This document shows positions 1-9,826 of a stretch of DNA of 10,526 bases, piece after piece. The stretch comes from Bradyrhizobium sp. (GTDB lineage Bacteria > Pseudomonadota > Alphaproteobacteria > Rhizobiales > Xanthobacteraceae), in contig JAQGKC010000135.1 in NCBI GenBank assembly GCA_028290305.1, forward strand, positions 1-10,526. Reading direction: 5' to 3'. The translations under genes and the position numbers were made by a program. The notes beneath the pieces are model-generated. The model searched no databases. It saw only the letters and a program-made list of their open reading frames with translations, and was not told the origin of the DNA. The number at the start of each line of letters is the position of its first letter. Position 1 is the stretch's first letter.

Positions 1-298
1 GGTGCTGGTTGTTGTTGTCTGCCATCACGTCGTCCAGACTTCCGATCTTCTGGTTCTTCTCATTGCTGACACAGATGCCGAACAGGTTGCTCAGCCGCTA
101 GCCTTGTTCGACGACGTTAACGTCGACTTTGACGAGTGCGACGCCGGCTTGCGGCAGCGCGGGACCAGCCGCGAGCGAGACCGCGAGCGCGGCCCAGATC
201 ATGAGAGCGGGGCGCCGCCTGGCGAGCCGGCCATGCGGTGAACCAGACGAAGCAATGCCGGATGCCGGGGCCGTTCGGATCTTGGTGCAGGCTGCCAT
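1..298 (-). pseudogene. Exported PRC-barrel protein, 5' part, with in-frame amber codon (cut by window edge)
   Basis: The reading frame opens with ATG at 298, preceded by GGAG six bases upstream. It encodes a long basic N-region, then a hydrophobic stretch starting ALMIWAALAVSL and a likely signal-peptidase site near ALPQA, so the product should be exported. After the mature start (VALVKVDVNVVEQG) a TAG codon lies at 98-100. The same frame stays open beyond it to the window edge and reads RLSNLFGICVSNEKNQKIGS, then LDDVM. This matches the PRC-barrel core of the intact gene at 7911-8387 (VAKGYRADALKLKPVVNDKNEGLGRIDD). The amber codon falls exactly where that protein has the tyrosine of GYR, so a TAC/TAT to TAG change is the simplest explanation. 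PRC-barrel domains are small beta-barrels; exported rhizobial versions have no firm function. The rest of the gene lies outside the window. Suppression or a sequencing error is possible. Confidence 0.72.
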
Positions 299-357: not shown

Positions 358-371
358 CTGACTGTCGTCAA
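358..371 (-). promoter_or_regulatory. FNR/FixK-type operator upstream of the PRC pseudogene
   Basis: Read on the minus strand this is TTGAC-GACA-GTCAG, matching TTGAY-N4-RTCAA at 9 of 10 positions. Its centre is about 66 bp before the ATG at 298, so a start site 41 bp downstream would leave a leader of about 25 nt. The rest of the 299-425 gap shows no gene. Confidence 0.5.
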
Positions 372-425
372 TTCGACGCGAGCTTTTTTGAAGGCGCTCT
401 GAGCTTGGCGACCTTTCTTGCCACG

Positions 426-965
426 TCACGCGCTGCTATCGGCCGCCAGGCGCATGCGGATTGCCGCCACCATGGAGGCATAATCATAAGCTCCATCGTG
501 TCGCACACCGTTGATGAAGAAGGTCGGCGTGCCGATCACCCCGCTGCGGATGCCGCCCGTGAAATCGCTGCGAACCTTGTTTCGGTACTGCCCGGTCTCC
601 AGAGCGTTGCGCATGGCCTCCGGCGAAAGTTCGAGCTCTTCGCCGATCAGCAAGATCGTCGCAAGGCTAAGCCTGCTCTGCTCTTGAAACAGCGCCTCAT
701 GCATTTCCCAGAACACGCCAGCCGCGCCGGCGAACTCGGCACTTTCCGCGGCGATCTCGGCGTGAGGATGCACTTCGGTGAGAGGGAAGTGGCGAAAGAC
801 GAATCTCATTTGTCCGCGGAACGACAATTGCACCTGATTGACGATGGGAGCGGCCAGCGCACAATGCGGGCACTCGTAGTCGCCATATTCAACCACCGTA
901 ACCGATGCTTGCGCCGGTCCACGAACGTGATCATGTTGCGTGACCGGTATTTTCAAGGTCGCCAT
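426..965 (-). CDS. DsbA-family thioredoxin-fold protein, cytoplasmic type
   Basis: A 179-residue thioredoxin-fold protein. The fold begins at about residue 20 (SVTVVEYGDYECPHC). C32-P-H-C35 is the CxxC redox site and GTP at 145-147 supplies the cis-proline loop beside the active site. An alpha-helical insert lies between these. No signal peptide is visible, so unlike periplasmic DsbA it should act in the cytoplasm as a disulfide reductase or isomerase. The same domain type is known fused to some NhaA antiporters; here it stands alone. The start is taken at ATG 965 (MATLKIPV) with AAGG nine bases upstream. ATG 971 is close by, and the frame is open to 1037, but those extra residues lie inside the upstream gene. 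The start overlaps the end of the peroxiredoxin gene by 35 bp, so the two are probably translationally coupled. It may reduce the peroxiredoxin; that is inference. Confidence 0.88.
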   Translation of the reverse strand: MATLKIPVTQHDHVRGPAQASVTVVEYGDYECPHCALAAPIVNQVQLSFRGQMRFVFRHFPLTEVHPHAEIAAESAEFAGAAGVFWEMHEALFQEQSRLSLATILLIGEELELSPEAMRNALETGQYRNKVRSDFTGGIRSGVIGTPTFFINGVRHDGAYDYASMVAAIRMRLAADSSA

Positions 966-1458
966 GTTCATTTGCCTTGTTCGCTGCATTTGCCTTGTCA
1001 GCGAGTTTCTCGAGCGCGTCGAGAATTCCGTCGGCACCGGGATTAACCGCGACTGGTGAGAGATAGCTCCACGCGATCATGCCGCTCCGGTCGAGGACAA
1101 AGAGCGCACGTTCGCTCACACCATCGCCGGCCCGGTAGGCCAGATATCGTCTTGCTACCTCGCCTTTGGGTTCGAAATCGGAAAGCAGCGGAAAATGCAG
1201 GCGACGGTCGCGCGCAAAGGCCGCATGGCACCATACACCGTCCACGGAGATCCCGAGCAATTCAGCGCCGTGCCGGTGAAACTCCGGGAGGATCTCGTTA
1301 TAGAGCGTCATCTGATCGCCGCAGACCGGGCTCCAGTCGGCAGGATAGAATGCAAGGATCACCGGCTTTCCTCTCAGGTCCGACAGCGTGAGGTCCTGGT
1401 CGGGGGTCACCCGCAGCGAGAAGTTCGGTGCGGCCGTTCCGGCAGCTAGAATAGGCAT
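931..1458 (-). CDS. Peroxiredoxin (AhpC/TSA family, redoxin domain)
   Basis: A 175-residue thiol peroxidase that would reduce hydrogen peroxide or organic peroxides. The motif P39-x3-S43-x2-C46 (YPADWSPVC) corresponds to the family P-x3-T/S-x2-C site, making C46 the peroxidatic cysteine. R117 in SERALFVLD fits the conserved arginine that stabilises the cysteine thiolate. A second cysteine, C77 in GVWCHAAF, is a candidate resolving residue. There is no signal peptide. The body ends near residue 153; the tail (ADKANAANKANEHGD) is low in complexity and contains a short duplicated unit that also carries the downstream gene's start signals. ATG 1458 has GAGG six bases upstream. It is first in a two-gene unit with the DsbA-like gene. 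An FNR/FixK-like site lies 82 bp upstream. Confidence 0.9.
   Translation of the reverse strand: MPILAAGTAAPNFSLRVTPDQDLTLSDLRGKPVILAFYPADWSPVCGDQMTLYNEILPEFHRHGAELLGISVDGVWCHAAFARDRRLHFPLLSDFEPKGEVARRYLAYRAGDGVSERALFVLDRSGMIAWSYLSPVAVNPGADGILDALEKLADKANAANKANEHGDLENTGHAT
969..998 (-). repeat. 12-bp direct repeat, 18-bp period, spanning the gene overlap
   Basis: On the minus strand ACAAGGCAAATG occurs at 987-998 and again at 969-980, separated by six bases. The repeat is in frame for both overlapping genes. It adds a duplicated segment to the peroxiredoxin tail and gives two AAGG-ATG copies in the DsbA frame (ATG at 989 and 971) ahead of the preferred ATG 965. It looks like a small tandem duplication. 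Confidence 0.8.
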
Positions 1459-1533
1459 CTTCGACCTCGCGCGCTAAGTCCCGGTGGATGAACCCGGCTC
1501 GCCGGCATCTTGCAGCCCTGCGCCTACGCGTCG

Positions 1534-1547
1534 TTGATTGCGGTCAT
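1534..1547 (-). promoter_or_regulatory. FNR/FixK-like operator upstream of peroxiredoxin-DsbA unit
   Basis: The minus strand reads ATGAC-CGCA-ATCAA, matching TTGAY-N4-RTCAA at 9 of 10 positions. The centre lies about 82 bp before ATG 1458, which would allow a leader of about 41 nt if the site sits at -41. It lies in the divergent spacer 1459-1742 shared with the Crp/Fnr gene. Confidence 0.42.
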
Positions 1548-1625
1548 TTTTTCGAGCCATGATCTTCGGCTGGGGGACATCAGTCGTTGGCTCGGACATT
1601 CTGCAGTGCCCTCGCGCCGGAGCGC

Positions 1626-1642
1626 CATTACGTATTTTTACG
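1626..1642 (+). promoter_or_regulatory. CATTACGTA motif upstream of the Crp/Fnr gene
   Basis: CATTACGTA at 1626-1634 is followed by a second TTACG exactly 10 bp after the first (TTACG at 1628 and 1638). The motif ends about 100 bp before the Crp/Fnr start. The same 9-mer occurs at 5915 and, on the other strand, at 9346. The one-turn spacing suits a dimeric LuxR/FixJ-type regulator; the identity of the binder is inference. Confidence 0.4.
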
Positions 1643-1742
1643 ACGCATGGATTTTCGGAATCTTTTGAAACGTTGTGATGAGCCGGTTGTTCATCTGTCG
1701 CTGGGGTTCCTTCGAGACGGTTCCTTTCACGACTGAGGTGCA

Positions 1743-2459
1743 ATGATGAGAACAAAGCTCCACCCGGCAGACTATTATCGCCGAATACTTTCGGGGCAGC
1801 CCCACGCGTTCAAACGGCTTGATCCTTTTGCGAAAATCGTTCGATGCAACAGAGGACAGGAAATTAACTGTGAACCGGGGCCTTCAGGGCAGTGGTATTA
1901 CGTGATTGTCGGCGCTGTCCGGCGCAGTGCAGTCCGTCCGGACGGCCGGCGACAGATCGTCGATCTGATGCTGCCGCAGGATTTCTTTTTCGTTTCCGAC
2001 CACAAAAGAGACGAGGCGGTCGAGGCCATCGCCGAGGAAACCGTCTTGGCAAGCTATCCCGGGACGCCGGTCGAGCTACTCGCGGAGCGTGACCGTCAGT
2101 TCGCCCGCGAGCTCCGCGAGGTCGCGTTTCAATCTCTCAAGCGTATCCAGAACCAGCTCATGATCATTGGCGGCGTCACTGCCGTCGAGAAGGTCGGTTC
2201 GTTTCTGCTCTCGCTTGACCGACGTAGCGCAGACCGACAAGGTCAGGTGGAACTCCCAGTAACACGATATGACATCGCCGAATACCTTGCAGTTTCGGTC
2301 GAGACGGTGTGTCGTGCCATCACGGACCTGCAGCAGCGCGGAGTCATTACTTTGGTTGGCACGCGAACGGTCAGAATCCTGAACCGAGATGCTTTGGAGG
2401 ATCGCTCCATCGATAAGTTCGATGCGGTAAGGTCGACGGTTGCCGCAAAGGCGGCATGA
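1743..2459 (+). CDS. Crp/Fnr-family transcriptional regulator, FixK-like
   Basis: A 238-residue regulator. Residues 25-115 form a cyclic-nucleotide-binding-type beta-roll, residues 118-160 the long dimerisation helix, and residues 170-215 a winged helix-turn-helix. The recognition helix reads VETVCRAITDLQQRGVI; E187 and R191 match FNR E209 and R213, which contact TTGA half-sites. C190 occupies the place of FNR S212. The N-terminal four-cysteine cluster of FNR is absent (only C35 and C43 precede the DNA-binding domain), so an oxygen-sensing iron-sulfur cluster is unlikely. That is FixK-like, meaning control through its own synthesis or an unknown ligand. ATG 1743 has GAGG four bases upstream; ATG 1746 is an equal alternative. 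The gene is divergent from the peroxiredoxin gene and convergent with the FixJ-like gene. No FNR-type box is seen before it, but a CATTACGTA motif is. The protein is the natural candidate for the five TTGAC-type boxes nearby. Confidence 0.9.
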   Translation: MMRTKLHPADYYRRILSGQPHAFKRLDPFAKIVRCNRGQEINCEPGPSGQWYYVIVGAVRRSAVRPDGRRQIVDLMLPQDFFFVSDHKRDEAVEAIAEETVLASYPGTPVELLAERDRQFARELREVAFQSLKRIQNQLMIIGGVTAVEKVGSFLLSLDRRSADRQGQVELPVTRYDIAEYLAVSVETVCRAITDLQQRGVITLVGTRTVRILNRDALEDRSIDKFDAVRSTVAAKAA

Positions 2460-2542
2460 TTTCCACCGACTCTTCAGGCCACTCTATCTTACGTTTGAGC
2501 ATCAATCTTTTCAGGAAACCGCTGCACGCTTGTCGGATCTGG

Positions 2543-3169
2543 CTAGCTCCTACGCCTCGTTACGGGTAGCTGTGGGTTCAATTTCGCCATGACCCCCAGA
2601 CGTATGACCTCCGCGAACTGGCGTACACCTAGCCGTTCCATCATGCGTGCGCGGTGGACCTCGACGGTGCGCACACTGATCCCGAGCTTGTAGGCGATCA
2701 CCTTGTTGGGTCGGCCTGCCAATAATCCATCAAGGACTTCCCCTTCGCGCGCGCTCAGCCTTGCAATGCGTCGCACGGCGTCGGCAATATCAAGATCGGT
2801 GGCTCTCCCGAATGCTGCCTCGATCGAACCAAGCAGCGCCTCGTCACTGTATGGCTTTTCGAGAAAATCGGCCGCGCCTGCCTTCATCGCACGAACGGCT
2901 GTTTGAATGTCGCCCTGGCCGGTCACGACAATCACGGCAAGATCGGGCCTCATCGTCTTGAGTTGGGTCTGCACATCGAGCCCGCTTATCCCAGGCAGGC
3001 GGACGTCCAGCAGGACACAACCCGCGCCGAACGTATCGGCCGCGGCGAGAAATTCGTTCGGATGGTTGAAAGTGACTGGTTGGAAGTTCGCCGAGTTCAG
3101 CAGCCGGGCCATCGAACGAAGGACGGCGGCATCGTCGTCCAGGACATACACCGTTCGTTCATTCGCCAT
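2543..3169 (-). CDS. FixJ-like response regulator (receiver plus LuxR-type HTH)
   Basis: A 208-residue response regulator. The receiver domain (1-120) has the acidic pair D11/D12, phospho-acceptor D55 (VLLDVRLPG), switch T83 (VVTGQGD) and K105 (FLEKP). The C-terminal LuxR/FixJ helix-turn-helix (about 137-195) starts LSAREGEVLDGLLAG and has the typical PNKVIAYKLGISVRTVEVHR segment. Phosphorylation by the upstream kinase should switch on DNA binding. ATG 3169 has GGAG nine bases upstream and overlaps the kinase gene's last 11 bases, so the pair is an operon. The organisation resembles fixLJ, but FixJ is a large family and orthology to nitrogen-fixation FixJ cannot be claimed. The gene converges on the Crp/Fnr gene with an 83-bp spacer in which no clear terminator is seen. 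Confidence 0.92.
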   Translation of the reverse strand: MANERTVYVLDDDAAVLRSMARLLNSANFQPVTFNHPNEFLAAADTFGAGCVLLDVRLPGISGLDVQTQLKTMRPDLAVIVVTGQGDIQTAVRAMKAGAADFLEKPYSDEALLGSIEAAFGRATDLDIADAVRRIARLSAREGEVLDGLLAGRPNKVIAYKLGISVRTVEVHRARMMERLGVRQFAEVIRLGVMAKLNPQLPVTRRRS

Positions 3170-4862
3170 CTGGCTCTGCTCCGGATGGAAGCGTAAAGCG
3201 AAAGATCGTCCCGCCCATCGGGTTCGGCTCCGCTGTCAGTTGACCGCCGTGCGCCTCGACAATCGATCGGGAGATCGACAGCCCCATTCCCATGCCGTCC
3301 CGCTTTGTTGAAACAAACGGGCTGAATAATTGGTCGGCCATCTCGCGGGGAATTCCCGGGCCGATGTCGGCGACGGTAACCTCGATCATTTCACTGGCGA
3401 GAGCTCTGGTCGCCAAGGTCACTTCCCGGACTGCCTGATCGGCCATCGCCTCGCATGCGTTGCGGATGAGATTGACGAGGACCTGCTGGATTTGCACGCG
3501 GTTCACCGATACTTGGCTGGCGTTGTCATCGAATTCGAACCCGACGCGAACTGTCAGCGGCGCGACGCTGCTGAGTGCAAGAGCGCCTGCTTCCTCGATC
3601 ATCGAAGCAAGTCCTTCCACTTGTCTTTGCTTTTCATCGCGGGTGAGGAACTGGCGGAGGCTGCGGACGATTTCGCTCGCTCTCAATGCCTGCTCGGCTG
3701 CCTCGCCCGTTACTTCGCGTGCCACGACCAGGTCGACGCGCCTTTCAAGAAGTCGCTTCACCGCGTTGGCTGAATTGACCACGGCCGTGAGCGGCTGGTT
3801 GAGTTGATGCGCAAGAGCGGCGGCCATCTGGCCCGCTGCCGTGAGCCGCGCGGCGTGAAAAAGCTCGTTCTGCAATTGTCGAAAGCGGAAGTCTGTTTGC
3901 AAGTGTTCCCGTTGCTCCGCGACGAGCCGCCGATTGGCATCCGCCAATTCAGACGTTCGTTGCTCAACGCGTCGCTCCAGCGTTTCATTCACATAACGCA
4001 GCATCGCTTCCGACGCCTTCTGCTCGGTTAGATCCCGGCTCACCGTTGCGACGTTCATCGGCTCGCCCGTGCGCGGATCGTCGATCCTGAAGGAATCGAC
4101 GAGAAAGGATATTGCGGCTCCTGATCCGAAATGCTGCAGGTCGAGTCCTCCCTTCCAACGGCCGGTGCGAAGCACACTTGGCCAGAGTTCGTCCCGCACG
4201 GTTTTCCGGTACTGTGGCGACACGAAATCGCCGATCTCGAGCCGAATTGCATCGTCGAGGCTGGCGAGTCCAACCTGTTGCAGGCCGGCTGGATTGACAT
4301 ATTGGACCTTGCCGGTGAGCGAGGCGATCCCGATAAAATCGGTGGCTCGCTGCACCACTGCCGTAAACCGTTTGTTCTCTACCTCACCAAGCCATTGCTG
4401 GAAGGCGATCGCCGCCTGATTAGCCCCGGTGTTCAGCAGCAGCCGTTCTTCTTTGGTCGGAAATGTCTCTCGCACAGAGGCAGCGGCCAAGGTCGCGTCA
4501 ACGCCGAAACCGATCGGCGCGGTCATAACGTGCAGGTCGCTGCCGCCGGATCCGCCGGCGATGACAAATTCCTGTCCGCTGCCGGACGTCGTTCCTCCAC
4601 GGCGCAGGATGCGTATAAGGCTTGCCGGGGGCAGCGCCGGGCTACCGCGACCCAGCCTGACAATGGGTTCGTGGCTGCGGCCAGGAAGAGCAATGGAAAC
4701 AAAATCGGCGTCGAGCATGGAAATCAGCGCGGCGACAATGCTGTCGCCGATCTGGCGCATATCATAGTTGCGCCAGGCTGCAGGAAGCGCTGAAAGCGCG
4801 ATCAGATCGCGGATGCAACGTCGCAACGCGTCAGGATTTGCGAGCGAATGTGTCCACGGCAT
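3159..4862 (-). CDS. Sensor histidine kinase with GAF-like and PAS domains (FixL-like)
   Basis: Numbered from ATG 4862 (567 residues). Residues 25-160 look like a GAF-type domain, 166-280 a PAS domain (DFIGIASLTGKVQYVNPAGL to VATVSRDLTEQK), and 280-340 a coiled coil. The HisKA box LAHQLNQPLTAV gives H352 as phospho-acceptor. The ATPase domain has an N-box at 464-471 (NLIRNACE), G1 DIGPGIP at 499-505, an F-box FSPFVSTK at 513-520 and G2 GMGMGLS at 523-529. No transmembrane segment is visible, so it is cytosolic. The PAS helix where FixL carries its heme histidine (IRLEIGDFVSPQYRKTVRDE) has no histidine, so heme oxygen sensing is unlikely. The signal is unknown. ATG 4862 is preferred, with AAGG eight bases upstream; GTG 4943 would extend the protein by 27 residues but would place a 17-bp palindrome inside the gene. 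The partner regulator overlaps its end. Confidence 0.9.
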   Translation of the reverse strand: MPWTHSLANPDALRRCIRDLIALSALPAAWRNYDMRQIGDSIVAALISMLDADFVSIALPGRSHEPIVRLGRGSPALPPASLIRILRRGGTTSGSGQEFVIAGGSGGSDLHVMTAPIGFGVDATLAAASVRETFPTKEERLLLNTGANQAAIAFQQWLGEVENKRFTAVVQRATDFIGIASLTGKVQYVNPAGLQQVGLASLDDAIRLEIGDFVSPQYRKTVRDELWPSVLRTGRWKGGLDLQHFGSGAAISFLVDSFRIDDPRTGEPMNVATVSRDLTEQKASEAMLRYVNETLERRVEQRTSELADANRRLVAEQREHLQTDFRFRQLQNELFHAARLTAAGQMAAALAHQLNQPLTAVVNSANAVKRLLERRVDLVVAREVTGEAAEQALRASEIVRSLRQFLTRDEKQRQVEGLASMIEEAGALALSSVAPLTVRVGFEFDDNASQVSVNRVQIQQVLVNLIRNACEAMADQAVREVTLATRALASEMIEVTVADIGPGIPREMADQLFSPFVSTKRDGMGMGLSISRSIVEAHGGQLTAEPNPMGGTIFRFTLPSGAEPDGE

Positions 4863-4920
4863 CGCCTCGGCCTTGAGAAGGTTCGCGGCAGCCCCGATAA
4901 GTATGCTACTGGTCTTCGGA

Positions 4921-4937
4921 ATTTGGCAATGCCAAAT
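4921..4937 (-). promoter_or_regulatory. Perfect 17-bp palindrome upstream of the kinase gene
   Basis: ATTTGGCA-A-TGCCAAAT is an exact inverted repeat with 8-bp arms. Its centre is about 67 bp before the preferred ATG at 4862, a position typical of an operator. It differs from the TTGAC-type boxes, so another regulator would bind it. If the GTG at 4943 were the true start, the palindrome would be coding. Confidence 0.55.
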
Positions 4938-5127
4938 AGGCACCGGCCTCGATCGTGAAAGGTAGGGTGCTAGAAATGCCTGACGGACCTCGGTATGATT
5001 GCACTTTACCTATGTTATGTATCACAGGGGTTGCATGCTGCGGAGATGGTTTAGCAGAGCCGAGCTTTTGCCTGGCCTCTGAGCCTTTCACACCGTCTTT
5101 TACGTCTGATCGGCAGTTCGCTATTGC

Positions 5128-5745
5128 CTAAGCCGCTGATCTGGCCGTGCTGGAATTGAGCGGCTGCTGTTGCCGGGACCGGAGCCTGAAGGAAAATATG
5201 ATCAACGAAATGCCAAACGCGATCGCGTAGGCTCCGATCCACCAGGTGAGTACGACCGCCCCGATAATCGGTGTAGCGATGAGGAGGGCGCCGTACGCGA
5301 GAGAAATCAGGCCGCCCAGAACCAGCCACCATCGGCCATGGTCGATATTGAGGCGAAAGCCCGCGGCGGCCATCAGCGCGCCGGTGACGATTGCCCACGC
5401 CGCGACCAGCAACACGAACGCGAGAACAGTAAGCCCCGGCCAGAGAAAAGCGGCAATGCCGACCGCGATATCGAGCAGGCCTTCAAAAGCCAGCAAGCCC
5501 CAGCGATCCCTTTGGCGCGCCGCCCGCACTGCCGAGATAATCCCGACTACTCCGTCCACCAGCATGTAGGCGGAAAACACGATGACGAGCGATAGCATCG
5601 TTGCGCCTGGGAATATGAGCGCAATCAATCCAAAGATGATGCCCACCACGCCGCGCAGCGTGAACAGCCACCAATTTCGGACGAGTGTCCTCGATGCAGA
5701 ATCGGAGTCAACTTCAGAAGCGTTACCATACGTGGTGCTGGCCAT
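5128..5745 (-). CDS. HdeD-family (DUF308) membrane protein
   Basis: A 205-residue integral membrane protein with about six transmembrane segments arranged as three similar helical pairs: roughly 24-66, 80-125 and 137-185. Typical features are NWWLFTLRGVVGIIFGLIAL at 24-43 (starting N24-W-W), then FPGATMLSL, with the related WPGLTVLAFVLL in the second pair. HdeD proteins are linked to acid or envelope stress; their biochemistry is not known. A polar, Ser-rich N-terminus and a basic C-terminus (RLRSRQQQ) would face the cytoplasm. ATG 5745 is chosen because GGAG lies seven bases upstream. ATG 5751 is too close to it, and the open frame up to 5817 runs into a palindromic operator. The gene appears monocistronic. 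A perfect FNR/FixK-type box is centred 78 bp before the start. Confidence 0.9.
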   Translation of the reverse strand: MASTTYGNASEVDSDSASRTLVRNWWLFTLRGVVGIIFGLIALIFPGATMLSLVIVFSAYMLVDGVVGIISAVRAARQRDRWGLLAFEGLLDIAVGIAAFLWPGLTVLAFVLLVAAWAIVTGALMAAAGFRLNIDHGRWWLVLGGLISLAYGALLIATPIIGAVVLTWWIGAYAIAFGISLIIFSFRLRSRQQQPLNSSTARSAA

Positions 5746-5816
5746 TGACATGCTCCCGCAGCTTGGTTCGATCTGTTTGTCACCTGGCGAACTTAAGCGC
5801 CGTGACGGGACGTGCA

Positions 5817-5830
5817 TTGACGGCCGTCAA
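5817..5830 (-). promoter_or_regulatory. FNR/FixK-type operator (perfect 14-bp palindrome) upstream of HdeD gene
   Basis: TTGAC-GGCC-GTCAA is a perfect palindrome and matches TTGAY-N4-RTCAA at all ten positions. The centre lies 78 bp before ATG 5745, so a -41 placement leaves a leader of about 36 nt. Confidence 0.68.
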
Positions 5831-5912
5831 GAATGAGATCCTTCTCGATAAACAACACAGTCAGCATACGACGGAGCCGCAGAGAGTTCGAGAGCGAGAT
5901 CGGTGCAGCTGA

Positions 5913-5930
5913 AGCATTACGTAGCATTAC
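5913..5930 (+). promoter_or_regulatory. CATTACGTA motif as a direct repeat, upstream of the zinc-ribbon gene
   Basis: AGCATTAC occurs at 5913-5920 and again at 5923-5930, exactly one helical turn apart, with CATTACGTA at 5915-5923. It lies about 90 bp before the start at 6019. The spacer 5831-6018 shows no gene. Confidence 0.42.
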
Positions 5931-6018
5931 TGAATAGCGACTATTTTCATTTCACCCCAGAGTTCAGGGACCGCGTAACCAACGACCAATCAGGGAGAGC
6001 AGCTATCCTGCTGGACCG

Positions 6019-6255
6019 ATGTTCTCAGATCGAACTGATAGATTCAAAGAGCTTGCAACCATCCATCGGCCGTCGTGCTTGAAATGCAAACGTCCGATGA
6101 AATGGGCCAGAACTTCTCCTGGTACGATGGGACATCAAGAGTTCACCTTCGACTGTTCGACTTGCGGTCGTCGCGAAATACGTGCGGTCGCTATCGATCC
6201 ACTTCGGACCGATGCAGTTGGCTGGATAGCGAGTGAACTCAAGCCGCCTAGATAG
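6019..6255 (+). CDS. Small zinc-ribbon protein of unknown function
   Basis: A 78-residue protein with two cysteine pairs, C20-x2-C23 (PSCLKCKRP) and C46-x2-C49 (FDCSTCGRRE), the layout of a small zinc ribbon. The C-terminal part (VAIDPLRTDAVGWIASELKPP) resembles, from memory, small rhizobial proteins that end at about the same place, so the gene looks complete. The ribosome-binding site is weak (GGA close to the ATG). A direct-repeat CATTACGTA motif lies upstream. The same frame stays open for 68 codons after its TAG stop, without recognisable similarity. Function is unknown; the ribbon could bind nucleic acid or protein. Confidence 0.72.
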   Translation: MFSDRTDRFKELATIHRPSCLKCKRPMKWARTSPGTMGHQEFTFDCSTCGRREIRAVAIDPLRTDAVGWIASELKPPR

Positions 6256-6512
6256 CCACGTTGCAAAGGGCTTGTTGGCAGTGACAGACGTGAATGCATA
6301 AAGTCGCGGCCACTGAACGGGATCGAGCCCGACAAGTCGGAAGACGACCTTCAGCGTGACCTGCTTGGGCGACGTGGCGTTCCGGACCCGGAAGGTGACA
6401 CTTGGCGTGCAAAGAAACGCCGAACGACTCGATCCCGGCCATCCTGCGCGATGCTAATGTGACAGGCGCAATAAAACGAGAGTCCAAAGCTCGGCGAAAG
6501 AATATCCCGAAG

Positions 6513-6743
6513 CTATCGTCGCTCTATCACGACGTTGCCTCTGATCACGCAGAACGTCCGCTTGCCATCTGAAACCTCGGTAGCAACGTAAGTATTCGCC
6601 TTGGCGTGGGCGGCTTTTCCGAGGGCGGTCGGAGTACGGCGGACGGCATGGGCGCAGGCCTCATCGGCAGTCCCAAATCGGAGGCCTCTGCGGTCCTCCG
6701 TCAATCGTCCGTTCAAGTACCGATGGAAATAGAATCGCTGCAT
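6513..6743 (-). CDS. DUF6894-like small protein
   Basis: A 76-residue protein starting MQRFYFHRYLNGRLTEDRRG. The opening R-x-Y/F-F-H followed by a short polar turn and a conserved D/E-x-x-G is the hallmark of the DUF6894 family, common in rhizobia and of unknown function. The C-terminal half (VATEVSDGKRTFCVIRGNVVIE) gives beta-strands as in the family. ATG 6743 is preferred; a TTG at 6752 would add three residues. The Shine-Dalgarno sequence is poor. No promoter motif is evident. It stands alone on this strand, next to the dehydrogenase remnant. Confidence 0.68.
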   Translation of the reverse strand: MQRFYFHRYLNGRLTEDRRGLRFGTADEACAHAVRRTPTALGKAAHAKANTYVATEVSDGKRTFCVIRGNVVIERR

Positions 6744-6790
6744 GTCGGCCAATTCGTGGCGCGGGCAGGCGTTCCAATGAATGGCTGCAG

Positions 6791-6982
6791 CTATGAAGCA
6801 TGCCCTGCGAGGACGATCTTTCCGAGCACCTGCCCCTGGGCGAGACGCTCATGCGCCCTGTAAGGACGATCGAGGGAATAGATTTCGGCGATCGGAGCCT
6901 TGAGTCTCGCCGCCTGTACGGCCGCGTTGAGGCGCTCGAATTCGCGAACGCCCGAGATGCCGTCATAACGGATGAGGGTCAT
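6791..6982 (-). pseudogene. 3' remnant of a zinc-type (MDR) alcohol dehydrogenase / quinone oxidoreductase
   Basis: The last 60 or so residues of the open frame match the C-terminal end of medium-chain dehydrogenases. GISGVREFERLNAAV corresponds to the conserved helix before the end, IYSLDRPYRAHERLAQGQ to the family pattern F-x-L-x2-A-x2-AH-x-x-L-x2-G, and VLGKIVL to the terminal strand. Full-length members have about 330 residues; the nucleotide-binding and catalytic parts are missing. Upstream, similarity stops near 6985, and the dispersed repeat starts within 100 bp, so deletion or insertion likely removed the 5' part. The open frame continues to 7159 but that part reads through the repeat and looks non-coding. 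Whether an ATG at 6982 is used is unknown. Confidence 0.6.
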
Positions 6983-7065
6983 GCCGCGGCGCTTCCTTGG
7001 TGCGGGCTCGATACCGTTCGGGTGTGCTAAGCGGCCGCAGCCAAATATGCAACCGCGGCCCGATC

Positions 7066-7150
7066 TGAAGCACGATCCAGAAAAAGTGCGAAGCGGTTTT
7101 CCGAAAAGATCACGCGCAGACAACAACTTGAAGCGCGATGGCGATCGACC
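7066..7150. repeat. Small dispersed intergenic repeat of the Bradyrhizobium type
   Basis: The segment runs from about GAAGCACGATCCAG through GCGGTTTTCCGAAAAGATCA to GAAGCGCGATGGCGATCG. From memory it matches a short repeat seen many times between genes in Bradyrhizobium and relatives, with core CGGTTTTCCGAAAAGATCA. The part 7073-7110 can fold: GATCCAGAAAA pairs imperfectly with TTTTCCGAAAAGATC. There is no coding function. It supports the taxonomic guess and marks a junction next to the truncated dehydrogenase. Confidence 0.66.
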
Positions 7151-7238
7151 TAAGGCCATGCGCTGGTTGGGGCTTTAAGGCGGACGAGCAGGGGAATGAC
7201 GAAGGAGGCGGGACGAGTTCGCAAAAGGGATCACGCAT

Positions 7239-7274
7239 AAAAAAGGAGGACCGCGCAGCTTTCGCCCGCGGCCC
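7239..7274 (-). terminator. Rho-independent terminator-like hairpin, minus strand
   Basis: CGCGGCCC (7267-7274) pairs with GGACCGCG (7248-7255) with one mismatch. On the minus strand the hairpin is followed by a six-T run (7244-7239) after three bases. No minus-strand gene ends just before it. Confidence 0.42.
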
Positions 7275-7289
7275 AAGTTTAGGGGGAGG

Positions 7290-7309
7290 AAAAAGGCCCG
7301 AAGACGGGC
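7290..7309 (-). terminator. Second terminator-like hairpin, minus strand
   Basis: On the minus strand GCCCG-TCTT-CGGGC forms a five-pair stem with a tetraloop and is followed by C and five T residues. With the hairpin at 7239-7274 it gives a tandem arrangement. Apart from these hairpins and the box at 7368-7381, nothing gene-like is seen in 7151-7461. Confidence 0.45.
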
Positions 7310-7367
7310 GGCGACAATTGGGACGTTGTCGCTGACTGACATGATGCAAATCGCTATCGACCGGGCC

Positions 7368-7381
7368 TTGACGATCCTCAA
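7368..7381 (+). promoter_or_regulatory. FNR/FixK-type operator upstream of the PsiE-like gene
   Basis: TTGAC-GATC-CTCAA matches TTGAY-N4-RTCAA at 9 of 10 positions and has the same GATC centre as the perfect box at 8933-8946. Its centre lies about 87 bp before ATG 7462, leaving a leader of about 46 nt if it acts at -41. Confidence 0.52.
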
Positions 7382-7461
7382 TTGCATTGCGACTAAATGC
7401 GACCCACGCTGTTGAAGCCTCGCCGCAACGCTACTTGTATTGCTGTGCCTGGAGGGCATCG

Positions 7462-7935
7462 ATGTCGATCAAGGAAGAACTGGGAAATGCCAAGGATAAA
7501 TTCAGGCTGCTTTCGTTCTATCAGCGCTTCGAGTACATCGTTGTCCTCATCCTCACCGCGTTGATCGCTGTCATCGTCGTTGCGGCGCTCTGGAGCCTGA
7601 GCTTGAAAATTCTGTTCGGTCTCGTTCTGTCGGGCAGCCTTGATCCGTCCGACTACACGATTTTTCAGGTCGTTTTCGGCATGATCTTTACGGTGATTAT
7701 TGCGCTCGAATTCAAGAAATCGCTCCTCGTCATGGCCGAGCGAAGCGAAAGCGTCGTCCAAATCCGTTCGGTGGTCGTGATCGCGCTCCTTGCCATCTGC
7801 CGGAAGTTTATCATTCTCGACCTCACGGAAATCGATGCCTGGCACATCTTGGCGCTTGCCGCGGCGATCCTCGCGCTTGGCGTAGTCTACTGGTTGATAC
7901 GCGATTCCGATCAGCGTCTCGGTGATGCGGACTGA
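7462..7935 (+). CDS. PsiE-like (phosphate-starvation-inducible family) membrane protein
   Basis: A 157-residue protein with a short charged N-terminus (MSIKEELGNAKDKF) and about four transmembrane segments near 24-48, 66-84, 103-118 and 127-146. The pattern FQVVFGMIFTVIIALEFKKS followed by an amphipathic linker (ERSESVVQIRSVVVIALLAI) and RKFIILD is typical of the PsiE family, which is common in rhizobial stress loci. The molecular function is unknown. ATG 7462 has a strong GGAGG six bases upstream; the frame is open to 7387 but that extension lacks such a site and is not hydrophobic. An FNR/FixK-like box lies 87 bp upstream. The gene converges on the PRC gene, and the two coding regions overlap by 25 bp at their 3' ends. 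Confidence 0.82.
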   Translation: MSIKEELGNAKDKFRLLSFYQRFEYIVVLILTALIAVIVVAALWSLSLKILFGLVLSGSLDPSDYTIFQVVFGMIFTVIIALEFKKSLLVMAERSESVVQIRSVVVIALLAICRKFIILDLTEIDAWHILALAAAILALGVVYWLIRDSDQRLGDAD

Positions 7936-8387
7936 GAAGACTGGGCAACCGGTTCACCGACGTAAACCGGCAATTTCTGCAGCGCGGCGCGTGTTGCTCC
8001 CGGCAGCATGATGTTGTCGGCGGATTCGTCGAGTTTCAGGCTGCGGAAGGGAATTGCGATCAGGTGGCTGGTCAGGCCGCCAAAGTCGCCGACGGCCAGG
8101 ACAACAAAGATGCTGTTGCCATCCTTGCTGAAAACGAAGTCGTCGATTCTTCCGAGCCCCTCGTTCTTGTCATTGACGACTGGCTTCAATTTGAGCGCAT
8201 CCGCGCGATAACCTTTCGCGACCTCGTTGGCCTCCAAAGGAGTAAGCGCAATCTCCTGCGCTGCGGCACGATCGATCCGTAGCGCCAGCACGGCAATCAT
8301 CAAGAAGATCGCCAGCAGCAACGTGAACAGGGGCGTGCCGTTAAAACCGCTTTCGCGGGTCAAGCGGGGGTCAAACCAGGCTGACAT
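7911..8387 (-). CDS. Exported or membrane-anchored PRC-barrel protein
   Basis: A 158-residue protein. A hydrophobic segment at about 20-37 (FTLLLAIFLMIAVLAL) is followed by an AAAQE site, so it is either cleaved and exported or anchored in the inner membrane with the barrel outside. The PRC-barrel lies at about 55-120: VAKGYRADALKLKPVVNDKN, then GLGRIDDFVF, FVVLAVGDFGG, HLIAIPFRSL. The tail is Ser/Gln-rich. PRC barrels are adaptor or ligand-binding modules; the role of exported rhizobial ones is unknown. ATG 8387 lies nine bases after the upstream gene's stop, so it is the second gene of a two-gene unit and shares its promoter. It is a paralogue of the broken gene at 1-298. Its 3' end overlaps that of the PsiE-like gene. 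Confidence 0.85.
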   Translation of the reverse strand: MSAWFDPRLTRESGFNGTPLFTLLLAIFLMIAVLALRIDRAAAQEIALTPLEANEVAKGYRADALKLKPVVNDKNEGLGRIDDFVFSKDGNSIFVVLAVGDFGGLTSHLIAIPFRSLKLDESADNIMLPGATRAALQKLPVYVGEPVAQSSQSASPRR

Positions 8388-8396
8388 CGTGGCGGC

Positions 8397-8831
8397 CTAT
8401 TGATGCCGCTGGTTCGAACTGCCGGAAGAAGATCCGACCGAACCATTGCTATTTGAACCGGTGGTGGCCGAATCCGAATCGGAGCCCGAGCTGATGACGA
8501 CTTCGGACACCAGCTTGGAATCCGGATCAATCAGAATAATGCGGTCCGGCAGCTTGACGAACAGCAAGTTCTTTAACTCGGGAACTTGATCGCTGACTCC
8601 GTCGGGCACCGATTGCGCGGTCATGGAGTCGGGAACCTTGTCGCCGACCTTTGGTCGTTCGCCGGACGGTGCAGGCTGTGACGGTGAATTCGCAAGCCCC
8701 TCATTGACCGCCCGCTGCTGCGTTGCGTTCAGCTCGGGATGGTCCTCGCCAAGCGCGTTCTGGCCGCAGGCGAAGCCCAAATTGCCAACTATCGCAAGAG
8801 TAGTTGCGCCCGCACGAATAAGTCTGGTCAT
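8397..8831 (-). CDS. Exported DUF1236-like protein with Ser/Gly-rich tail
   Basis: A 144-residue protein. The N-terminus MTRLIRAGATTLAIVGNLGF is a signal peptide; the single cysteine in FACGQNA is not a good lipobox. The middle (about 60-112) reads KVGDKVPDSMTAQSVPDGVS, then VPELKNLLFVKLPDRIILID, then PDSKLVSEVV. This fits DUF1236, where a periplasmic domain ends in a strand pattern of the type V-x-D-x-I-V-I-V-D-P. The last 30 residues are almost only Ser, Gly, Asn, Asp and Thr, a flexible tail. ATG 8831 has AGGAG six bases upstream. It is first in a unit with the PRC-barrel gene. A perfect FNR/FixK box lies about 108 bp upstream. Function is unknown; both products should meet in the periplasm. 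Confidence 0.75.
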   Translation of the reverse strand: MTRLIRAGATTLAIVGNLGFACGQNALGEDHPELNATQQRAVNEGLANSPSQPAPSGERPKVGDKVPDSMTAQSVPDGVSDQVPELKNLLFVKLPDRIILIDPDSKLVSEVVISSGSDSDSATTGSNSNGSVGSSSGSSNQRHQ

Positions 8832-8932
8832 GACGGTCTCCTGATCAGCTTGAAAGTGTCAAATCGCGTCAGCAAAGGGTCATGCCGAGGCGAAGCTAGT
8901 TTGATCGATAAGGGCGAGAAGTCTGAAGCGCG

Positions 8933-8946
8933 TTGACGATCGTCAA
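8933..8946 (-). promoter_or_regulatory. FNR/FixK-type operator (perfect palindrome) upstream of the DUF1236-PRC unit
   Basis: TTGAC-GATC-GTCAA is a perfect 14-bp palindrome and matches TTGAY-N4-RTCAA at all ten positions. The centre is about 108 bp before ATG 8831, which leaves a leader of about 67 nt for a -41 site. Confidence 0.66.
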
Positions 8947-8964: not shown

Positions 8965-9513
8965 ACTCATTCACGCCCTCGGCCGTGACGCGGCTGGCAA
9001 CTGAGGTACAGCCCGAGCGACAACGAGATTGCAGCTGCCTTCAGTCGCATTGACGAGGCGGGCCGTACCACGCCTTGGCGCGTCGCGTTTGCTTGTTGGC
9101 ACGCACTGGCAACCGACGTTGAACCGCGTTCATCGGCGGTCAGCGAACCGCCGCCCTTACGCCTTTCGGTATAGAGTCACCGGACCGAGAAGCGACCGTT
9201 CTTGTGTCGAATGATCGTGCCATGCAACGGCAGCTTTCCTGTCCTGCATGCCGACGCCGGCGGCCAAAGTCTCTGCCGGCCCTCAAATGAAGTACGAGGA
9301 AGTGAGGACCCGCCTGCGACATCGCACCGGTCAATTGGGTATTTTTACGTAATGTGGACAACGAGCATAATTCTGACGCACAGGGTTATGATCCGGTGCT
9401 GATACTGATGTCGCTCCCCAACTTGAACTGGCGCAGGTCCGGCTGACACGCCCTCTAGAGCTCTAACCCAAACGCCGATCCCATCCGGTTTGGAACGACT
9501 GAGGACAACGATC
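8965..9513. other. Gene-poor stretch
   Basis: The whole gap 8832-9513 lacks a convincing gene. The short open frames here have no family resemblance, no good ribosome-binding site, and residue content like random translation. Besides the two palindromes at 8933-8964 it contains a hairpin at 9134-9153 (CGGCGGT-N6-ACCGCCG, no T-run) and a reverse CATTACGTA motif at 9339-9354. It may be a decayed region. Confidence 0.5.
9339..9354 (-). promoter_or_regulatory. Third CATTACGTA motif, minus strand
   Basis: The minus strand reads CATTACGTAAAAATAC; TTAC is followed by ATAC exactly 10 bp later, the same layout as at 1626 and 5913. The nearest genes are 160 bp to the right (the frameshifted gene) and 500 bp to the left. 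Confidence 0.35.
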
Positions 9514-9657
9514 ATGGAGGACTTTGCATTGGCTCGTTTGGACGCCCATCGGAATGATATAGGCCGCCATTGCCGGACTGCTGAAAACCAATGTTACAGA
9601 GCTGGAGCACGAGTACATCCAAAGACGCCTGTCCGGGGAAACGCTGGACGTGTTTAG
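9514..9657 (+). pseudogene. Small rhizobial protein gene broken by a one-base frameshift
   Basis: ATG 9514 has GAGGA eight bases upstream. The first frame reads MEDFALARLDAHRNDIGRHC-R, a pattern I recognise from small rhizobial proteins beginning with ALARLxAHRxNI. It then turns into unrelated residues and stops at TAG 9655. Removing the A at 9577 restores LLKTNVTELEHEYIQRRLSG, the expected amphipathic continuation (the family usually has RLLKT-x-LTELE followed by I-x-RRL). The simplest reading is a one-base insertion. After the shift the second frame has no stop until 10012, so it runs in frame into the next gene; the natural end of the original gene cannot be placed. A sequencing error must be excluded. 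Function of the family is unknown. Confidence 0.62.
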
Positions 9658-9826
9658 TTTCCCAGAATCCGGCACAACCCAATCTGGCCGACGACCTAGG
9701 ACAAAGGCAGCTTTATTTGGGGACAATCTTCGGTTTCCCGGAATGACAGGTGCGCAGCCGATACGCTGGTTGCACGAAGCCAAGGCACTCGTAGGCAAAC
9801 TCCCAAGGCTAGGAACGGATAAGAAA

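Follow-up and report, generated by a model that had tools for sequence, protein, structure and literature searches.

The stretch of DNA analysed here, a Bradyrhizobium sp. sequence of 10,526 nucleotides (contig JAQGKC010000135.1, hereafter the window), carries a gene for a FixK-like regulator of the CRP/FNR superfamily, next to genes for a FixJ-like response regulator and a FixL-like histidine kinase and among genes for PRC-barrel, peroxiredoxin, DsbA-like, HdeD and PsiE-family proteins (Table 1). Five short palindromes of the TTGAC-N4-GTCAA type, hereafter the boxes, lie upstream of genes of this set. We consider it likely that the window belongs to an accessory island of stress-tolerance genes run by its own cascade, in which the regulator would activate its neighbours through the boxes.

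A preliminary description of the window had listed five TTGAY-N4-RTCAA sites, scoring 9, 9, 10, 9 and 10 out of 10 and all placed between genes and upstream of starts. Our re-scan returned the same sites with the same scores, and all five are intergenic; their centres lie 66, 82, 72 or 78 (the HdeD start is uncertain, 5751 or 5745), 87 and 108 bp from the start codon. The five sites are thus real, but the list was incomplete: three more one-mismatch matches occur at 7459-7472 (over the PsiE start codon), 7561-7574 (within PsiE) and 8554-8567 (within the anchor gene), so that the whole window holds two perfect and six one-mismatch matches. By base composition 0.019 perfect and 0.55 one-mismatch matches would be expected, by a first-order Markov model 0.03 and 0.91, and among 300 simulated windows none had at least two perfect matches and none had at least six with one mismatch. 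When up to two mismatches were allowed, no clear excess was seen (15 found versus 10.9 expected, a count reached in 32 of 200 shuffles), and the box count alone is therefore good but not decisive evidence.

Table 1. Genes, boxes and upstream element of the window, in order of position.
Feature	Position	Strand	Basis or remark
PRC1, N-terminal part of a PRC-barrel gene	98..298	-	translation; PRC genes of relatives overlap the region
Box TTGACGACAGTCAG before PRC1	358..371	-	9/10 match; -10-like TATCCG at 330-335
DsbA-like thioredoxin-fold gene	426..1037	-	Pfam PF13462/PF01323; start uncertain, perhaps 965
AhpC/TSA peroxiredoxin gene	931..1458	-	Pfam PF00578
Box ATGACCGCAATCAA before peroxiredoxin-DsbA	1534..1547	-	9/10 match; -10-like CAAGAT at 1507-1512
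Conserved FixJ-type element beginning CATTACGTATTTTTACG, before the FixK-like gene	1626..1656	+	alignment of 16 upstream regions
FixK-like CRP/FNR regulator gene	1743..2459	+	PF13545, PF00325
FixJ-like response regulator gene	2543..3169	-	Pfam Response_reg and GerE
FixL-like histidine kinase gene	3159..4862	-	start picked from relatives, mostly 560-574 aa
HdeD/DUF308 membrane protein gene	5128..5751	-	Pfam PF03729
Perfect box TTGACGGCCGTCAA before HdeD	5817..5830	-	10/10; -10-like TTAAGT at 5791-5796
Box TTGACGATCCTCAA before PsiE, the weakest box	7368..7381	+	9/10; core mismatch
PsiE-family gene	7462..7935	+	Pfam PF06146
PRC2, PRC-barrel gene	7911..8387	-	Pfam PF05239
Anchor gene, small protein, probably exported	8397..8831	-	no family match
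Perfect box TTGACGATCGTCAA before anchor gene/PRC2	8933..8946	-	10/10; -10-like TATCGA at 8905-8910

The ten window proteins were scanned with Pfam and curated family models, and only the N-terminal part of PRC1 and the anchor protein gave no family match. The PRC1 frame is interrupted after residue 66 by a TAG at 98-100, while PRC-like sequence runs on to the window edge; the stop would reflect either a pseudogene or a sequence error. PRC2 and the anchor gene, judging from their spacing, probably share one transcript, and orthologues of the anchor gene were found in four loci of relatives (L005, L007, L075 and L085). Comparison of plasmid sequences with the whole window by megablast gave no match.

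Box conservation and promoter geometry

A scan based on the regulator alignment yielded 13 loci, in Bradyrhizobium, Rhodopseudomonas and Methylopila and in metagenome bins. The gene order PRC, DsbA, peroxiredoxin, regulator, FixJ, FixL, HdeD recurs in these loci, whole or, more often, in part, and PsiE and PRC2/anchor are found further along. We scored the 260 bases (330 for PRC1) upstream of each orthologue, with starts extrapolated from the alignments; a site was a match with at most one mismatch, the window was counted, and alignments starting past residue 5 (past 46 for PRC1) were left out.

As the preliminary description had anticipated for a true regulon, boxes are present before orthologues in related genomes, most consistently before HdeD and PRC1 (9/9 scored orthologues each). 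The form TTGACAAYGGTCAG of the PRC1 box is kept in seven of the nine, which points to conservation beyond the consensus. Peroxiredoxin orthologues have a box in six of eight cases, and the two without a site (L011 and L013) stand behind a boxed HdeD gene; these two HdeD genes, each with a preceding box, fell outside the scored set. Conservation appears weak for PsiE (4/7) and thin for the anchor gene (2/3). A small DUF6894 gene of relatives, for which the window has no counterpart, is boxed in 3/4 cases, and no box precedes FixL (0/1) or FixJ (0/4). The regulator gene itself has a box in 7 of 12 upstream regions, 154-202 bp off and mostly shared with peroxiredoxin. Six relatives contain 77, 107, 78, 102, 46 and 18 perfect boxes per genome, as opposed to 3, 2, 5, 1, 4 and 0 matches to the reversed pattern, and their regulator loci together hold 16 perfect boxes versus 1.1 expected at the density of their own genomes.

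The sequence downstream of the boxes is also constrained. The 32 sites collected were reduced to 29 non-redundant ones by dropping three whose downstream sequence was at least 80% alike. In 20 of the 29, a TA starts 22 or 23 bases downstream of the box, whereas any other offset occurs at most three times (binomial p ~1e-23, an overstated value since sites of one gene are related). A box centred at -41.5 is placed as for class II activation by FNR-type proteins; offset 22 then falls at -12, where the -10 element begins. The earlier expectation that the boxes lie near -41 is thus borne out, as judged from sequence, by the -10 spacing of most sites. Within the window, the PRC1 and anchor boxes fit the TA spacing, at the HdeD box the TA is one base nearer, and the peroxiredoxin box has CAAGAT. 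Downstream of the PsiE box there is no TA at offset 21-23 and so no -10 element at the right distance. The five-unit regulon first described is supported for HdeD, PRC1 and peroxiredoxin-DsbA and thinly for the anchor unit, but its PsiE site is weak, owing to the core mismatch, the missing -10 element and the conservation in only 4/7 orthologues.

Other genes are boxed in relatives. By the gene calls and distances of a simple script, the genes that perfect boxes precede in these loci encode, among others, transporters of the AI-2E family (four loci) and of the MMPL type, baeRF proteins, a flavin oxidoreductase, an alcohol dehydrogenase, a thiamine pyrophosphate (TPP) enzyme, DUF2267, Lon (at a distance of 299 bases) and, in Methylopila, Hsp70. 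Related gene sets are carried on large plasmids of Azospirillum and of S. fredii NGR234: at E 1e-25 the regulator has only four plasmid relatives, three in Azospirillum and one in NGR234. The Azospirillum brasilense region encodes PsiE, AI-2E, Usp, BON, HdeD, GrpE, DnaK, ClpB, Hsp20, PRC-barrel and DegQ proteins, and further DsbA, redoxin, DnaJ/CbpM, TrxC, the regulator, a response regulator and DUF2267. Six perfect boxes occur in the Azospirillum island versus 0.03 expected; five are intergenic (usp/usp, BON-HdeD, redoxin-DsbA, DUF5335/DnaJ and TrxC/TMEM175) and the sixth overlaps the start of a usp gene. The initial view of the targets as an envelope and redox stress set was thus partly right, as such genes are indeed present, but the set is wider, with chaperones and proteases boxed or lying in the island of relatives.

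The regulator and the control above it

The assignment of a FixK-like regulator lying among the targets was confirmed: the protein belongs to the CRP/FNR superfamily and is FixK-like by sequence. Its recognition helix SVETVCR (residues 185-191), invariant in 29 aligned sequences, fits E-x-x-(S/C)-R. The only cysteines of the window protein are Cys35 (27/29 sequences), Cys43 and Cys190 (29/29), and the four iron-sulphur-cluster cysteines of FNR are not present. The protein thereby falls under the published description of the FixK group, in which at least one of the four FNR [4Fe-4S] cysteines is absent (PMC2908626). It scored 114 bits against the curated FixK model NF050806, below the cutoff of 300, and we therefore call it FixK-like. 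In the tree it belongs to a separate clade of 16 rows together with the Azospirillum and NGR234 proteins (98/99 support), apart from FixK1 and the fixK2 clade, the deeper forks being unsettled. In the helices compared, position 185 is Ser or Ala in all members of this clade versus Thr in the ETVSR paralogues, a residue that may serve as a lead on DNA specificity; Cys190 tracks the boxes only in part.

Among 98 Bradyrhizobium genomes, six were found to have a close regulator at a threshold of E 1e-40, and the HdeD orthologue was found in the same six (Fisher p 1e-9); the peroxiredoxin (E 1e-50) was found in two genomes, both of them regulator carriers. Carriers have 6-11 TTGACDNNHGTCAA sites each versus 0-11 (mean 3.2) in the 92 non-carriers (Mann-Whitney p 5e-5). 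A family-wide count over 119 genomes was uninformative, with the regulator in only three (E 1e-35) and the non-carriers G049 and G119 rich in sites. Two nearby copies of the FixK-like gene are seen in L012, where the second is split over two frames, and in L064/L067 (genome G175). In B. rifense (L005) the peroxiredoxin (9277-9734) and FixJ (10695-10921) homologues are in pieces, which suggests decay of the island in this species.

The candidate control element of the regulator gene, RTTACGTRNTTYTACG, sits ~100-125 bases before its start. The TTACGTR core is exact in 13 of 16 orthologues and one base off in L010 and L015. The core TACGNNNTTNTAC also precedes fixK2 in two of four fixK2 loci, versus none of 20 other CRP/FNR loci. 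A strict pattern, RTTACGTRNTTNTAC, is found in all six carriers among the 98 genomes; it stands directly before the regulator gene in five, in G175 before one of the two copies, while in G124 the regulator is preceded by a copy that differs at one base, and strict matches lie ~19-23 kb off. The conserved element, with a core shared by two of four fixK2 loci, suggests that the regulator gene is under FixJ-type control. Because the regulator's own box is 154-202 bp off and a separate FixJ-type element is present, a FixLJ-like step probably sits above the regulator. Further matches resembling this element occur in the window at 5915-5923 and 9340-9354 (CATTACGTA / TATTTTTACG). A variant, GTTACGTGATTATACGGAG...CATTTCTTTGATCT, recurs in several Bradyrhizobium genomes (L097, L101, L102 and L104); neither it nor the form GTTACGTGATTATAC that recurs in non-carriers stands before a FixK-type gene within the flanks examined.

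The FixJ-like protein scored 203 bits against the curated FixJ model NF006900 (cutoff 255). The resemblance of the kinase to FixL is confined to its C-terminal ~250 residues: model NF041777 matches at residues 341-589 only, with 267 bits (cutoff 850), and the PDB matches are chimeras with the FixL kinase. A PDB search returned no match of the kinase input region to the FixL haem PAS at E 1 or less. The only suggestive PDB match of this region is a weak one (E 0.007) to 3ewk, which we take to be a flavin-binding sensor, and a PAS-like stretch falls below the Pfam cutoff. The structure model (mean predicted local distance difference test score, pLDDT, of 62) is too poor to identify the input domain. 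The folds that it matches best are FixL-kinase chimeras and other histidine kinases, and with low confidence the N-terminal helix-strand order looks GAF-like and is followed by the PAS-like stretch. Since the input region gave no match to the FixL haem PAS, the signal may be a redox or other envelope or respiratory cue instead of oxygen. The H-box motif AHQ, in which Gln follows the phospho-accepting His, is shared by the window protein with its relatives P0122 and P0123; the remaining 18 of 21 aligned kinases have AHE.

Alternative readings and known systems

All together, the data support the local regulon under the neighbouring FixK-like regulator that was proposed earlier. In the cascade that we propose, the FixL-like kinase and the FixJ-like regulator would probably switch on the FixK-like gene via the upstream element. 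The FixK-like protein would then bind the boxes centred near -41.5 and activate the units of the PRC-barrel, peroxiredoxin-DsbA, HdeD and anchor/PRC2 genes and perhaps that of PsiE. The pairing of box and protein, activation as opposed to repression, and the nature of the signal are what we infer here from sequence.

Several observations weigh against this cascade. The upstream element has diverged in L062, and its strict pattern also occurs in 13 of the 92 non-carriers. Across the 13 loci FixL is present in three and FixJ in six (two as fragments); neither is found in L003, L004, L006, L009, L011 and L013, and the L002 and L012 loci are incomplete. Another FixJ may serve in the six loci that lack both. 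The NGR234 plasmid has no perfect box, just 11 one-mismatch sites versus 1.4 expected. TTGAC-N4-GTCAA sites are found in non-carriers too, 0-11 in each, some of them in polysaccharide loci. The regulator tree carries long-branch warnings, and for some of the 98 genomes the scoring did not cover all first-look candidates, so that a regulator may have been missed. Finally, FixK-type paralogues (~30-40% identity) are present in the six genomes examined and bind related boxes, and could thus act on these genes too.

This last point leads to a different view, that the boxes are ordinary FixK2 or FNR sites and that a global low-oxygen regulator, not the local protein, is in control. The described FixK2 box TTGA/C-N6-T/GCAA (PMC9104804) covers the sequences found here, uspA and groEL fall within described FNR/FixK2 regulons (PMC9104804, PMC2908626), and other FixK-type paralogues are at hand in the six genomes. 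The composition of the boxes argues against FixK2 itself. The FixK/FnrN consensus is TTGANCNNGATCAANG (PMC4999443), and putative FixK2 boxes have C at position 6 in 11 of the 14 cases compared, two of these 14 being one site read both ways (PMC9104804). Our 29 sites have C at position 5 in 24 and at position 6 in only three (Fisher p 2e-5 for position 6), and thus mostly lack the C of FixK2-type boxes. Of the 22 FnrL sites of R. sphaeroides counted, 5 have C at position 6, and C at position 5 is frequent among them (PMC2908626), so that the boxes stand apart from FixK2 sites, not clearly from FNR sites. Moreover, the boxes cluster around the local regulator gene, and the regulator and HdeD are both present or both absent across the 98 genomes, whereas other FixK-type genes are a general feature of the genomes examined. 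We thus regard control by a global regulator as unlikely.

It is still less probable, in our opinion, that the boxes serve a different CRP/FNR protein or repression and that the adjoining regulator is coincidental. Several readers of the box are conceivable, as an unrelated CRP/FNR protein sits among the same boxes in polysaccharide clusters; nevertheless, the box-to--10 position is that of class II activation, and the regulator and HdeD co-occur in 6/6 genomes. Chance matches in a GC-rich window, which the absence of a clear two-mismatch excess and the three one-mismatch sites within or at the start of genes might seem to favour, were rejected on the simulated counts, the fixed -10 spacing and the conservation before orthologues across genera and orders, and we give them almost no credence. 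A rule by which the box would occur only with the regulator was also tried and fails: the non-carriers G200 and G182 and the family member G031 have clustered boxes. The clusters are polysaccharide loci (L068/L069 in G200, L070/L071 in G182, L080-L082 in G031) with several TTGAC-N4-GTCAA-type boxes, and their CRP/FNR protein (~24% identity) has the helix SLETVCR (L069 and L081 read ETVCR). Boxes clustered there without the regulator mean that the box is not exclusive to it, and these clusters may be another local regulon that uses the same box.

The system most similar to the proposed cascade is FixLJ-FixK2 of Bradyrhizobium diazoefficiens. Both have a FixL-type kinase core, a FixJ-like regulator, a FixK-like protein without the FNR cysteines, palindromic TTGA-N6-TCAA boxes and, as seen in two of four fixK2 loci, a similar element before the regulator gene. 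Here, however, the kinase input region gave no match to the FixL haem PAS, the regulator is in a separate clade and was found in 6/98 genomes, the box mostly has C at 5 and A or G at 6, and the targets are stress genes. The position of the redox-active Cys183 of FixK2 corresponds to Thr174, while Cys190 lies within the recognition helix. Because the curated FixJ and FixK cutoffs were not passed and the box is not of the FixK2 type, we keep the name FixK-like and do not file the system under FixK2. The FNR/FixK/DNR regulons of alpha-proteobacteria belong to the same superfamily and have near-identical half-sites (PMC2908626). The stress set found here does not appear in those parts of the tables of that survey that were compared, and no description of this regulon was found in the open-licence literature searched, in agreement with the preliminary description. 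Among the regulators to which the survey assigns no known role are orphan regulators and those FixK orthologues that fall outside Nitrobacter, Bradyrhizobium and Rhodopseudomonas (PMC2908626); the boxed genes would give a FixK-like clade of this sort a concrete target set. The comparison with the FixK2 box would also offer a natural system in which to study how paralogous CRP/FNR proteins avoid cross-talk.

In gene content, the closest parallel is the transmissible locus of stress tolerance (tLST). The window shares with the tLST (PMC8290217) HdeD, thioredoxin-type (DsbA/peroxiredoxin) and PsiE-like genes, and the Azospirillum island adds Hsp20, ClpB and a DegQ protease. The tLST is carried on mobile elements; the island, for its part, is accessory in Bradyrhizobium (6/98), and related sets lie on large plasmids of Azospirillum and NGR234. 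Among the annotated matches listed, however, the HdeD protein is ~33% identical to hdeD-GI proteins, none of the ten window proteins scanned is an sHSP20, ClpK/G, FtsH, YfdX1/2 or KefB of the tLST, and the tLST regulator is a Mer-like orf1 versus a FixK-like protein here (PMC8290217). The lxa locus of Burkholderia cenocepacia, in which Usp, heat-shock and BON-domain genes are tied by its authors to low oxygen and an Anr/FixK-like regulator, is a functional parallel, set beside the island by description only and with partial overlap in gene content (PMC6127331). The island seemingly brings its own sensor and promoters, and how soil and plant-associated bacteria survive redox, heat or envelope stress would become testable through one regulator gene. 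We tentatively suggest, as a possibility that the comparisons leave rather less than even, that this alphaproteobacterial island corresponds in function to the tLST and moves together with a FixLJ-FixK-like cascade of its own. The box read by its regulator, TTGAC-RRYY-GTCAA, would differ from FixK2 sites; the whole clade would have a small residue at position 185, and its Bradyrhizobium-type members a recognition-helix cysteine that could make DNA binding redox-sensitive.

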